Shown here: positions 18,667 through 21,487 of the stretch, piece after piece | Position numbering within the stretch: position 1 is the stretch's first letter | How the letters are laid out: each line of letters opens with the position of its first letter | Assembly: GCA_944385545.1 (NCBI GenBank) | Contig: CALWXQ010000013.1 | Coordinates: 1-36,561, forward strand | Direction of reading: 5' to 3' | Length of the DNA: 36,561 nucleotides | DNA from: an uncultured Oscillospiraceae bacterium | GTDB taxonomy: Bacteria > Bacillota > Clostridia > Oscillospirales > Oscillospiraceae | Notes under the pieces: generated by a model | Told to the model about the DNA's origin: nothing | What the model saw: only the letters and a program-made list of their open reading frames with translations | Database searches by the model: none | Program-made: the position numbers and the translations under genes

Positions 18667-19947
18667 ATGGAACTGTATTTGATCAGCCTGGCGGCCGCCC
18701 TGGTAGGCGGATTGCTCATGTCCCGGGTCACCAAGCTGCTGAATCTGCCCGCCGTGACTGCCTACCTGGTGGCGGGACTGCTCCTGGGCCCCTTCGGACT
18801 GGGGGCGCTGAAGGTTCCCGGTCTGGGCTTTAACTCCCTGGAGCAGGTGGAGCTGATGAGCATCATCACCCAGACGGCCCTGGGCTTCATCGCCTTCACC
18901 ATCGGCAATGAGTTCCGGCTGAGCCAGCTGAAGGCCACCGGCGCCAAGGCCATCACCATCGGCATCCTGCAGGCGGTGATCACCACCGTGCTGGTGGACA
19001 TTGTACTAATCTGCTTGCATTTCTGCATGCCCAATGTGATCTCCGTCTCCAGCGCCATCACCCTGGGCGCCATTGCCTCCGCCACTGCCCCTGCCGCCAC
19101 GCTGATGGTGGTGCGTCAATACAAGGCCGACGGCCCTTTGACCCGGCTGCTGATGCTGGTGGTGGCCATTGACGATGCCGTGGGCCTGGTGCTGTTTTCC
19201 GCTTCCTTCGGCATTGCCACCGCCCTGTCCAGCGGCCAGGTGAACGTTACTGCCGTGGTGGTGGAGCCGATTGTGGAGATCCTGGGTTCTCTGGCCCTGG
19301 GCGCGGCCATTGGCTGGCTGCTGAACCTGGTGGAGCAGTTCTTCCACTCCCGGAGCAAGCGTCTGACCATCTCCGTAGCTTTTGTACTGCTGGCTACCGG
19401 CCTGTCCATGCTGGAGTTTGACATAGGCGGCGTCCACTGCTCCTTCTCGCTGCTGCTGGTATGCATGATGACCGGCACCATTTTCTGCAACTTCTGCTCC
19501 ACGTCGGAGGAACTGATGGATCGGGTGGATGGCTGGGTCATGCCCCTGAACGTGCTGTTCTTCGTGCTTTCCGGCGCGGAGCTGGATCTGAACGTGCTGT
19601 CCCAGCCGGTAACGCTGCTGGTGGGGGTAATCTATATTCTCTCCCGGTCCGCGGGTAAGTATTTCGGCGCCTACGGCAGCTGCCGCCTGACCCGTCAGGA
19701 CAAGAAGATCACCGACCATCTGGGCATCACCCTGCTGCCCCAGGCAGGCGTGGCTTTGGGCATGGCCCTGACTGCCGCTTCTCTGCCCGACGGGGAGCTG
19801 GTTCGCAATGTGGTGCTGTTCTCGGTGCTGGTGTATGAGCTGGTAGGCCCCAACCTGACCAAGCGTTCCCTGCTGGCTGCCGGAGAGATCCGCCCCGAAG
19901 GCCGGGTCAGCTCCAGAAAGGAAAACAAACCCGCCAAAAACAATTGA
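18667..19947 (+). CDS. CPA2-family cation:proton antiporter (Kef-like membrane domain)
   Basis: 426 residues with about twelve membrane segments and no cytosolic TrkA/RCK domain. Conserved landmarks are LPAVTAYLVAGLLLGPFGLG in the second segment, and VVAIDDAVGLVLFS, whose paired aspartates are the cation-binding site of CPA2 exchangers. The basic tail (SSRKENKPAKNN) lies in the cytoplasm. It probably exchanges Na+ or K+ for protons; ion choice cannot be read. The ribosome site is weak (AGAGGG, rather far from the ATG). A 7-bp GC hairpin at 19953-19978 follows the stop. Confidence 0.88.
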   Translation: MELYLISLAAALVGGLLMSRVTKLLNLPAVTAYLVAGLLLGPFGLGALKVPGLGFNSLEQVELMSIITQTALGFIAFTIGNEFRLSQLKATGAKAITIGILQAVITTVLVDIVLICLHFCMPNVISVSSAITLGAIASATAPAATLMVVRQYKADGPLTRLLMLVVAIDDAVGLVLFSASFGIATALSSGQVNVTAVVVEPIVEILGSLALGAAIGWLLNLVEQFFHSRSKRLTISVAFVLLATGLSMLEFDIGGVHCSFSLLLVCMMTGTIFCNFCSTSEELMDRVDGWVMPLNVLFFVLSGAELDLNVLSQPVTLLVGVIYILSRSAGKYFGAYGSCRLTRQDKKITDHLGITLLPQAGVALGMALTAASLPDGELVRNVVLFSVLVYELVGPNLTKRSLLAAGEIRPEGRVSSRKENKPAKNN

Positions 19948-19952
19948 GTTTA

Positions 19953-19984
19953 CCCGGGGCCGCCTGGGCGTCCCCGGGAATTTT
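19953..19984 (+). terminator. Possible terminator of the antiporter gene
   Basis: CCCGGGG (19953-19959) pairs with CCCCGGG (19972-19978), followed by AATTTTCT. Weak, but it separates the antiporter from the riboswitch promoter. Confidence 0.45.
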
Positions 19985-19988
19985 CTGG

Positions 19989-20017
19989 TTGACAAATCCC
20001 CGGAATTTTCTTACAAT
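19989..20017 (+). promoter_or_regulatory. Promoter of the riboswitch-controlled transcript
   Basis: TTGACA at 19989-19994, exactly 17 bp, TACAAT at 20012-20017. Transcription would begin near 20024, at the first base pairs of the aptamer. Confidence 0.9.
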
Positions 20018-20026
20018 AGAACTATC

Positions 20027-20100
20027 CTCCTGCATGACTGACGGATGATCGAGGGTTCCCTCGGGGGAGTGCGGGAGCTGTAATGCCGACCGTCTGGGCA
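20027..20100 (+). promoter_or_regulatory. ZTP (pfl motif) riboswitch aptamer
   Basis: P1 is CTCCTGCA (20027-20034) with TGCGGGAG (20070-20077, one G-U). The conserved joining sequence TGACTGACGG follows (20035-20044), then the CGAGG/CCTCG hairpin and GGGGAG. After a short linker comes the conserved 3' half, GCCGACCGTCTGGGCA (20085-20100). GACGG (20040-20044) pairs with CCGTC (20090-20094) to form the pseudoknot. This matches the pfl RNA, which senses ZTP/ZMP, the purine intermediate that accumulates when 10-formyl-tetrahydrofolate is short. Ligand binding would favour expression of the DUF1576 gene. Confidence 0.92.
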
Positions 20101-20131
20101 ATTCAGCTTATGGGCTGGATTGCCCTTTTTT
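20096..20131 (+). terminator. Riboswitch expression-platform terminator
   Basis: GGGCAATTCAGC (20096-20107) pairs with 20114-20125 (12 bp, one G-U) and is followed by six T. The left arm uses the GGGCA of the aptamer, so folding of the ligand-bound aptamer and of the terminator are mutually exclusive, as expected of an ON switch. Confidence 0.92.
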
Positions 20132-20161
20132 CGCCGGCACAGCAATTAAGGGGGCGGATTT

Positions 20162-21487
20162 ATGAAGAAGATCAGACAATTATCAGAGGGCAGCTTTTTG
20201 AAGCTGGTATTCGGGCTGTTTGCCCTGGCCTTCCTGGCGGCGGCGGTGTGTATGCCCGACCGGGCCGATATGTTCAGCGGCCTGTGGCGGATCCTCAGCC
20301 AGCCTGGCAAGATCTCCACCAACTACTTTGCCCTGGGGGGCTATGCCGCTACGCTGCTGAATATGGGGCTGGTGTGCGCCATCTGTCTGGGGCTGTTCCT
20401 GGTGTTCCGGGGAACCCCCAGCAACGTCTCTACCCTGGCTGTACTGCTGACCACGGGCTTCGCCTCCTGGGGCATCCATGTGCTGAACATCTGGCCTACC
20501 ATTCTGGGTGTGTTGCTGTACGCGCTGGTGAAGAAGGAAAAGCCCGGCTCCCTTGTCAATGCCATGCTGTTCTCCACCGGCATCGCCCCTTTGATCACCG
20601 ATCTGATGGTGCGCTACCCCAATGCGGAGACCGTGGGCTTCAATCTGCCCGGGGTGCTGCTGGCCCTGGCGGTAGGCCTGGCCATCGGCTTCTTCCTGCC
20701 TGCGGGGCTGGCCTTCTCGCCTAAGGTACATAAGGGCTTCGACCTGTACAGCGCCGCCCTGCCCATCGGCATGACCGCATTCTTCTTAAACGCGGTATTA
20801 TACAAGACCCTGGGCGTGGCCCTCCCGGCAGCCCCGGGGGCGGAGACGCTGGCGGTGGCCTCCCGGATGACCACCAATGTGTTCTGCTGCGTCCTGTTCG
20901 GAGTGTGTATCTTGCTGGCCCTGGTCTTGGGCTGCCGCCCCAGGGACTATTGGCGGCTGCTGACGGATCCGGCCCTGGTGACCAACTTCTCCTCCACCTA
21001 CGGCAACGCTGTGTTCCTGATGAACCTGGGCGTATTCGGCCTGTTCATCCTGGGATACTATAACCTCATCGGCGCCACCTTCAACGGCGTGACCTTCGGT
21101 ATCCTGTTCTGTATGCTGGCCACCTGCAATTCCGGCTCCCATCCGGGGAACGTCTGGCCCATTATGGCGGGATACTATCTGGCCTCGGTGGTCTGCGCAT
21201 GGCTGTCCGGCCTGGTGGGGGGCAGCTTTGCCGGCGCCATCAACGCCCAGGCCATCTGCGTGGGGCTTTGCTATGCCAACGGCTTAAGCCCCATCTGCGA
21301 TAAGTACGGATGGCCCTTCGGCATACTGGCGGGCGTCATGCATTATCTGCTGGTGACCTCGGTGCCCAACCTCCACGGCGGCTTCTGCCTGTACAACGGC
21401 GGCTTCACCGCGGCCCTGATCTGCCTGATCCTGGTGCCCCAGCTGGAGCGCTTCGCCCACGAGAAACGACTGACCTCCAAGACCTGA
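20162..21487 (+). CDS. DUF1576 polytopic membrane protein under ZTP riboswitch control
   Basis: 441 residues with about ten to twelve membrane segments and short loops. The conserved stretch GATFNGVTFGILF, then CNSGSHPGNVWPIMAGYY, and LHGGFCLYNGGFTAAL near the end fit my memory of DUF1576 proteins, whose function is unknown. No ATP-binding or catalytic motif is seen, so a secondary transporter or channel is most likely. The AAGGGGG ribosome site lies just past the riboswitch terminator. Since ZTP riboswitches normally control purine and one-carbon (folate) genes, a role in moving a purine, a folate or a one-carbon compound across the membrane is a reasonable hypothesis. A GC hairpin follows the stop. 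Confidence 0.82.
   Translation: MKKIRQLSEGSFLKLVFGLFALAFLAAAVCMPDRADMFSGLWRILSQPGKISTNYFALGGYAATLLNMGLVCAICLGLFLVFRGTPSNVSTLAVLLTTGFASWGIHVLNIWPTILGVLLYALVKKEKPGSLVNAMLFSTGIAPLITDLMVRYPNAETVGFNLPGVLLALAVGLAIGFFLPAGLAFSPKVHKGFDLYSAALPIGMTAFFLNAVLYKTLGVALPAAPGAETLAVASRMTTNVFCCVLFGVCILLALVLGCRPRDYWRLLTDPALVTNFSSTYGNAVFLMNLGVFGLFILGYYNLIGATFNGVTFGILFCMLATCNSGSHPGNVWPIMAGYYLASVVCAWLSGLVGGSFAGAINAQAICVGLCYANGLSPICDKYGWPFGILAGVMHYLLVTSVPNLHGGFCLYNGGFTAALICLILVPQLERFAHEKRLTSKT

Follow-up and report, generated by a model that had tools for sequence, protein, structure and literature searches.

The window analysed here, a stretch of 36,561 nucleotides from an uncultured Oscillospiraceae bacterium, contains a gene for a DUF1576 membrane protein that is probably a formate transporter with no detected sequence relation to FocA, switched on by its own riboswitch when 10-formyl-tetrahydrofolate (10-formyl-THF) is short; this reading is given a rough probability of 0.7. 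As a riboswitch the element is ordinary and belongs to an established class, RF01750; the new part is the assignment of the transporter. The initial annotation had proposed a one-carbon or purine transporter that comes on when 10-formyl-THF runs short, and as to pathway that proposal is strongly supported, since the riboswitch recurs and relatives of the gene lie in an fhs-fchA-folD operon; its choice of substrates narrows considerably.

The elements preceding the gene follow one another on the + strand. A sigma-70-type promoter, TTGACA-17-TACAAT, occupies 19989..20017 (11/12 consensus letters; the pattern occurs once in 19900-20200, against a mean of 0.2 in shuffles). The ZTP/ZMP riboswitch aptamer lies at 20024..20106: Rfam cmscan over the whole window returned, at gathering thresholds, one tRNA and this one riboswitch, a ZMP-ZTP (RF01750) match of 56.7 bits (E 8.6e-07; gathering score 39) that covers the full model, 1-86 of 86. 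With the arms taken from the cmscan alignment, P1 pairs 20026-20035 with 20069-20078, and P3 pairs about 20083-20087 with 20097-20101; the pseudoknot halves GACGG (20040-20044) and CCGTC (20090-20094) are present in the sequence. An intrinsic terminator at 20096..20131 (a hairpin at 20096-20125, then T6) constitutes the expression platform. The terminator-like hairpin has 13 pairs at -22.4 kcal/mol (z -4.4 against 200 shuffles), and because its 5' arm begins in the GGGCA of the aptamer, aptamer and terminator should compete. A purine-rich, ribosome-binding-like stretch, located by direct reading of the sequence at 20148..20157, precedes the ATG at 20162. The aptamer, the promoter, P1, the pseudoknot, the GGGCA shared with the terminator and the polytopic DUF1576 protein directly downstream had all been proposed beforehand; running the covariance model and locating the parts one by one bore these claims out.

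Over 54 aptamer matches, not all of them 5' of DUF1576 genes, a model-fitted alignment has two-sided changes in 7 of the 8 P1 pairs and a P1 covariation score that exceeds all 500 shuffles; the columns of the pseudoknotted second half are conserved. Among 42 cases (the window and the 41 loci described below) a strict terminator pattern lies 3' of the aptamer in 37; in the other five GTCC stands ahead of the T-run, and a G-U pair preserves the pairing. Score, P1 covariation with the conserved second half, and an expression platform that overlaps the aptamer all place the window's element in RF01750, with which it shares the aptamer and its conserved halves, the pseudoknot, a terminator that overlaps the aptamer, the logic of an on-switch and the one-carbon context. 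It differs in what it controls: a lone DUF1576 membrane protein (PF07613). The window genome has one further ZTP aptamer, 5' of purE.

The circuit that we propose would work as follows. A shortage of 10-formyl-THF would let ZMP, an intermediate of purine synthesis, accumulate together with ZTP; ZMP or ZTP would bind the aptamer, hold the pseudoknot and keep GGGCA from the terminator; with the terminator blocked, transcription would continue into the transporter gene; formate would then enter and be converted by Fhs (formate-THF ligase) to 10-formyl-THF, and ZMP would be consumed.

The gene product (20162..21487, + strand) is a hydrophobic protein of 441 residues that matches PF07613 in two stretches (E 4.7e-71; 238.5 bits against a gathering score of 25). 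This is its sole match in Pfam, which is to say that it gives no match to PF01226, the family of FocA and the other FNT (formate/nitrite-type) transporters. The two halves of the protein align to each other (hhalign probability 90, E 1.5e-6), which indicates an internal two-fold repeat. The AlphaFold2 model has a pLDDT of 93 and a pTM of 0.92, and the N-terminal repeat modelled alone has a pLDDT of 84. Neither the full model nor the N-terminal repeat gave a Foldseek hit in the PDB with E <=0.001, a profile search of PDB sequences with DUF1576 found no match, and the 50 structures listed by Foldseek for the predicted fold include no FNT. The highest probabilities among the 50 matches listed for each fold search belong to urea transporters (up to 0.60 for the full length, 0.44 for the half); these matches are a lead and fall short of significance (best E 0.37, TM-scores no higher than 0.40), so that the model has no significant structural similarity to the urea transporter fold. 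Urea transporters are themselves built as a two-fold repeat, a feature that the DUF1576 protein has in common with them.

What company does the gene keep? In a sample of 300 genomes of the bacterial family, DUF1576 is above cut-off in 97 and a ZTP aptamer is present in 126. The window type of DUF1576 was defined by a set of 29 genomes, 28 of them (the window's included) with a protein at >=45% identity to that of the window, and one (G085, 33%) assigned by its operon slot. A same-strand folD gene lies upstream in 27 of these 29, usually after fhs-fchA, at a distance of 9-248 nt in 26 genomes and of 700 nt in G195; the two without folD just upstream are G161 and the window genome. By Pfam and NCBIfam, representative neighbours are formate-THF ligase (FTHFS), an FchA/FTCD_C-family protein, FolD and 5-formyl-THF cyclo-ligase. 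The aptamer stands directly upstream of DUF1576 in three of the 29 (G000, G279 and G062), and in G279 and G062 it sits between folD and DUF1576. (Motifs shared upstream of other DUF1576 genes were considered as a second riboswitch and ruled out: they fall in the folD coding sequence. Two other RNA elements occur at such loci: a THF riboswitch in L072, about 1.6 kb before fhs, and an FTHFS RNA motif, RF02981, at L063 9685-9784 (-), where a series of fhs, fchA and folD genes begins that ends in DUF1576.)

The window genome, an assembly of 106 contigs that total about 2.03 Mb and are 85% complete, carries fhs-fchA-folD on a different contig from DUF1576. There, folD is followed by neither a DUF1576 nor a FocA match, the next open reading frame being one of 692 aa. 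The DUF1576 gene is thus detached from the operon and has a switch of its own, as purE does.

The initial annotation called for a survey of DUF1576 genes behind ZTP riboswitches. Related loci in named genomes number 232, and the 80 best of these, near-copies included and not thinned, were searched with a covariance model trained on 28 aptamers of the family, the window's among them; the nearest named relatives are metagenome-assembled genomes (MAGs), several labelled Faecousia and many Oscillospiraceae. A same-strand aptamer lies just upstream, 40-425 nt 5' of the DUF1576 start, in 41 of these 80 nearest loci, and in 12 of the 41 the end of folD also lies <600 nt upstream. Among the other 39, folD is <600 nt upstream in 27, with no aptamer between. 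The last 12 of the 80 are mixed: folD is elsewhere in the locus in five (L123, L151, L162, L165, L174), fhs is directly upstream in one (L157), three (L143, L171, L190) have no aptamer, folD or fhs feature, and three (L132, L145, L154) have <600 nt of upstream sequence, L154 with a piece of fhs directly upstream. In L141, L146, L177 and L189 the aptamer stands at the head of a longer series, in which a trigger-factor-like gene (by eye) comes first and fhs, fchA, folD and DUF1576 follow, and L146 has a second aptamer ahead of DUF1576; a trigger-factor-like gene lies between a ZTP aptamer and fhs in L167 also. Tandem DUF1576 copies, each about 60-74% identical to the window protein, occur in six of the 80 loci (L144, L154, L175, L176, L179, L180) and in L280, whose identities equal those of L154 and which may be the same locus.

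A cation/proton antiporter (18667..19947, + strand; PF00999, 8.6e-33) is a conserved neighbour. Homologues of this CPA2-like protein end <600 nt 5' of DUF1576 in 14 of the 80 loci and lie just 3' of it in two; besides the window, antiporter loci are L113-L120, L122, L138, L142, L150, L163, L167, L190 and L191. Both L120 and L167 are arranged as fhs-fchA-folD-antiporter-ZTP-DUF1576, and in L167 this aptamer is the second of the locus. The antiporter is a possible partner, and may energise or buffer formate uptake.

The evidence that bears most directly on the substrate comes from the place after folD and from what else occupies it. In the FocA comparison (DISPLACEMENT), PF01226 was found in 153 of the 300 family genomes. 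Seven loci were chosen first, all in genera where the operon with DUF1576 occurs too, and in six of them the order is fhs-fchA-folD-FocA: FocA stands where DUF1576 stands in sister species. G273 and G234, of one genus, both have 5-formyl-THF cyclo-ligase and differ in the transporter that lies between folD and the cyclo-ligase gene. The FocA of this slot is FocA-like, at 173 bits under the FocA equivalog cut-off of 290. Slot occupancy was counted over 66 loci with PF01226, these being the stronger-scoring matches and the genus matches and not all 153 (71 loci were entered, five of them without a FocA match): 11 lie in the fhs-fchA-folD slot and 55, mostly more distant FocA types, outside it. 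The two families thus replace one another in the same slot and differ in build, DUF1576 having 441 aa, two repeats and PF07613 only, against about 270 aa for FocA/FNT. PF01226 also appears inside ZTP-headed operons of the same bacterial family: ZTP-fhs-fchA-folD-FNT (L230), and ZTP-purE-purC-purF-purM-FNT-purN (L231, G224 C35; the pur names except purE assigned by eye from translations).

Replacement is accompanied by near mutual exclusion. PF01226 occurs in 0 of the 29 window-type genomes and in 153 of the other 271 (Fisher 2e-10, kinship ignored). When the calculation is stratified by genus and confined to genera that have both families, an overlap of zero has a probability between 2.7e-4 and 8e-4, according to whether genus g96 is counted as three genomes, as five (two unlisted genomes may belong to it) or left out. 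Genus g1 contributes to the sample five genomes with DUF1576 and without PF01226, and one, G135, with the reverse. No FocA match was found in any of the 80 near loci or in the 28 family loci with the window type, and there is no PF01226 in the window genome sequence, at 85% completeness. In the window's genus (121 genomes, any PF07613 match being taken as DUF1576 whatever its type) 105 have DUF1576 only, three PF01226 only, one both and 12 neither (P 0.006). All 12 genomes with neither gene are <90% complete. The three with PF01226 only have it in the slot (G135, G341) or outside it (G401). G338, alone in the genus sample in having both families, has 6% contamination; its FNT gene adjoins DUF1576 (L300; C92, 3937-6231) and is a PF01226 member of a different type, 34% identical to the slot type. 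Genome completeness and kinship weaken these exclusion statistics.

The history of the slot can be read on a tree of FolD+FchA from 38 operons, 26 with DUF1576 and 12 with FNT. The occupant changes eight times along this tree, and at least six of the changes are forced by well-supported branches; clustering of the labels is weak (25 of 500 shuffles are as low), and long branches leave L080, L207, L230, L275, L286 and L290 unsure. Two operons, L198 and L200, lie apart from the others of their genus, which suggests that whole operons may have moved between species.

That FocA-type channels alternate with DUF1576 beside a formate-consuming enzyme points to formate as the substrate. Of the substrates named in the initial annotation, formate gains from the shared slot and the near-exclusion, which argue by the same token against purines, folates, glycine and AICAR riboside. 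A reading that accepts the riboswitch link as real and has the protein carry something else from one-carbon, purine or folate metabolism (5-formyl-THF, folate, glycine or serine, hypoxanthine, AICA riboside) is unlikely, and it has its own circumstantial evidence: in 5 of 28 family loci the gene directly after DUF1576, and on its strand, encodes 5-formyl-THF cyclo-ligase (L066, L068, L072, L079, L201), a divergent purE with its own aptamer lies just upstream in six near loci (L131, L133, L136, L137, L139, L184), and the ZTP regulon spans purine and folate genes (excerpts of PMC2864571). Against it, the slot alternates with a transporter of the formate/nitrite family, and the cyclo-ligase gene follows the FocA version as well (in G273). 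FNT proteins are small-anion channels, which can carry anions besides formate and are not known to carry folates or purines.

If the protein carries formate, in which direction? FNT channels carry both ways and Fhs can run towards formate; FchA, moreover, belongs to the formiminotransferase-cyclodeaminase family, and 39 of the 80 near copies have no aptamer directly upstream. One can accordingly construct an export scheme, in which Fhs, FchA and FolD work catabolically and release formate from the carbon of serine, glycine or histidine. We consider it quite improbable: a ZTP on-switch acts when 10-formyl-THF is short, and losing formate at that moment would be counterproductive; in this bacterial family the same switch also heads fhs, purE and (by eye) pflB operons, for example ZTP-fhs-fchA-folD (L228) and ZTP-pflB-pflA (L229, by eye). 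An on-switch placed before an importer closes the loop, and placed before an exporter would not. From displacement and context, then, we infer both the import direction and formate in preference to another small anion. That the DUF1576 gene is a bystander, hitch-hiking behind folD or a moved riboswitch, would suit the varied neighbours of DUF1576 at large and is very improbable: on the operon tree FocA and DUF1576 replace each other in one position at least six times, DUF1576 and FNT nearly exclude each other, and an aptamer lies just before the gene in about half of the nearest loci.

Formate import would answer a need that the gene content of the genus suggests. Fhs is over cut-off in 56 of 61 genus genomes examined, and 59 have some match. 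PFL-like enzymes (PFL, pyruvate formate-lyase) occur in 17 of the 61, and in 2 of 18 good genomes; scores of PFL strength (E<1e-200) occur in five of the 61, a sixth, in G338, being cut by a contig end. With Fhs common and PFL rare, many of these bacteria seem to need outside formate or another route to it, such as CO2 reduction. The window genome has two PFL-like loci: one, when scanned, reached 180 bits where the cut-off is 678, and the other is on C47; with this second locus, and with the assembly 85% complete, absence of PFL and FNT from the window genome is not proven.

How far does the assignment reach? DUF1576 proteins at 24-36% identity share PF07613, are not in one-carbon operons where examined, have other neighbours and can co-occur with FocA, and the formate assignment is for these reasons limited to the window's subfamily. 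A function for DUF1576 as a whole, which the initial annotation had envisaged, is not upheld. Of 15 loci with distant DUF1576 genes, at least three have a ribF-like gene immediately before DUF1576 (L220, L225, L227 and related; by eye), some of these ribF-linked genes having a truB-like gene (by eye) nearby, and in L069 DUF1576 follows a CoA-transferase-like gene (by eye). At 29 DUF1576 loci from genomes of the class there is no folD, fhs, fchA or FocA match within about 1.5 kb on either side; one of them, L306, has a purE-like match. A small conserved gene with an EEYYW-like motif (by eye) often follows the distant class DUF1576 (L304, L305, L311, L313, L319 and others). The window type itself was not found in 290 other genomes sampled across the class, where the best E is 2.7e-73 and the window protein has 5.9e-211. 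A role in one-carbon metabolism for all of DUF1576 was considered and ruled out, on the other neighbours of the distant members and on that best class score.

In the open-licence PMC papers covered, neither DUF1576 nor PF07613 occurs, and no paper brings ZTP, riboswitch and formate transporter together. The main text of a 2017 survey of the FNT family (PMC5525234) names formate, nitrite and hydrosulphide as substrates, and in that main text purine, folate, tetrahydrofolate and riboswitch are absent.

The broader picture is somewhat less secure than the assignment to formate and still, we think, probable: that this DUF1576 subfamily consists of two-repeat formate transporters outside the FNT family, which in the Oscillospiraceae have exchanged with FocA behind fhs-fchA-folD on six or more occasions, have repeatedly come under ZTP control, are perhaps aided by an antiporter, and serve on-demand import of formate for purine synthesis in gut bacteria that have no pyruvate formate-lyase. 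Among the products on which gut bacteria cross-feed, formate is a major one. If the picture is true, a subfamily of unnamed membrane proteins acquires a specific and cheaply testable substrate, a non-FNT kind of formate transporter is added, and the ZTP regulon extends to formate uptake. Since most of these bacteria seem to be without pyruvate formate-lyase, an importer under such a switch would, in that case, suggest that they rely on their neighbours for making purines.
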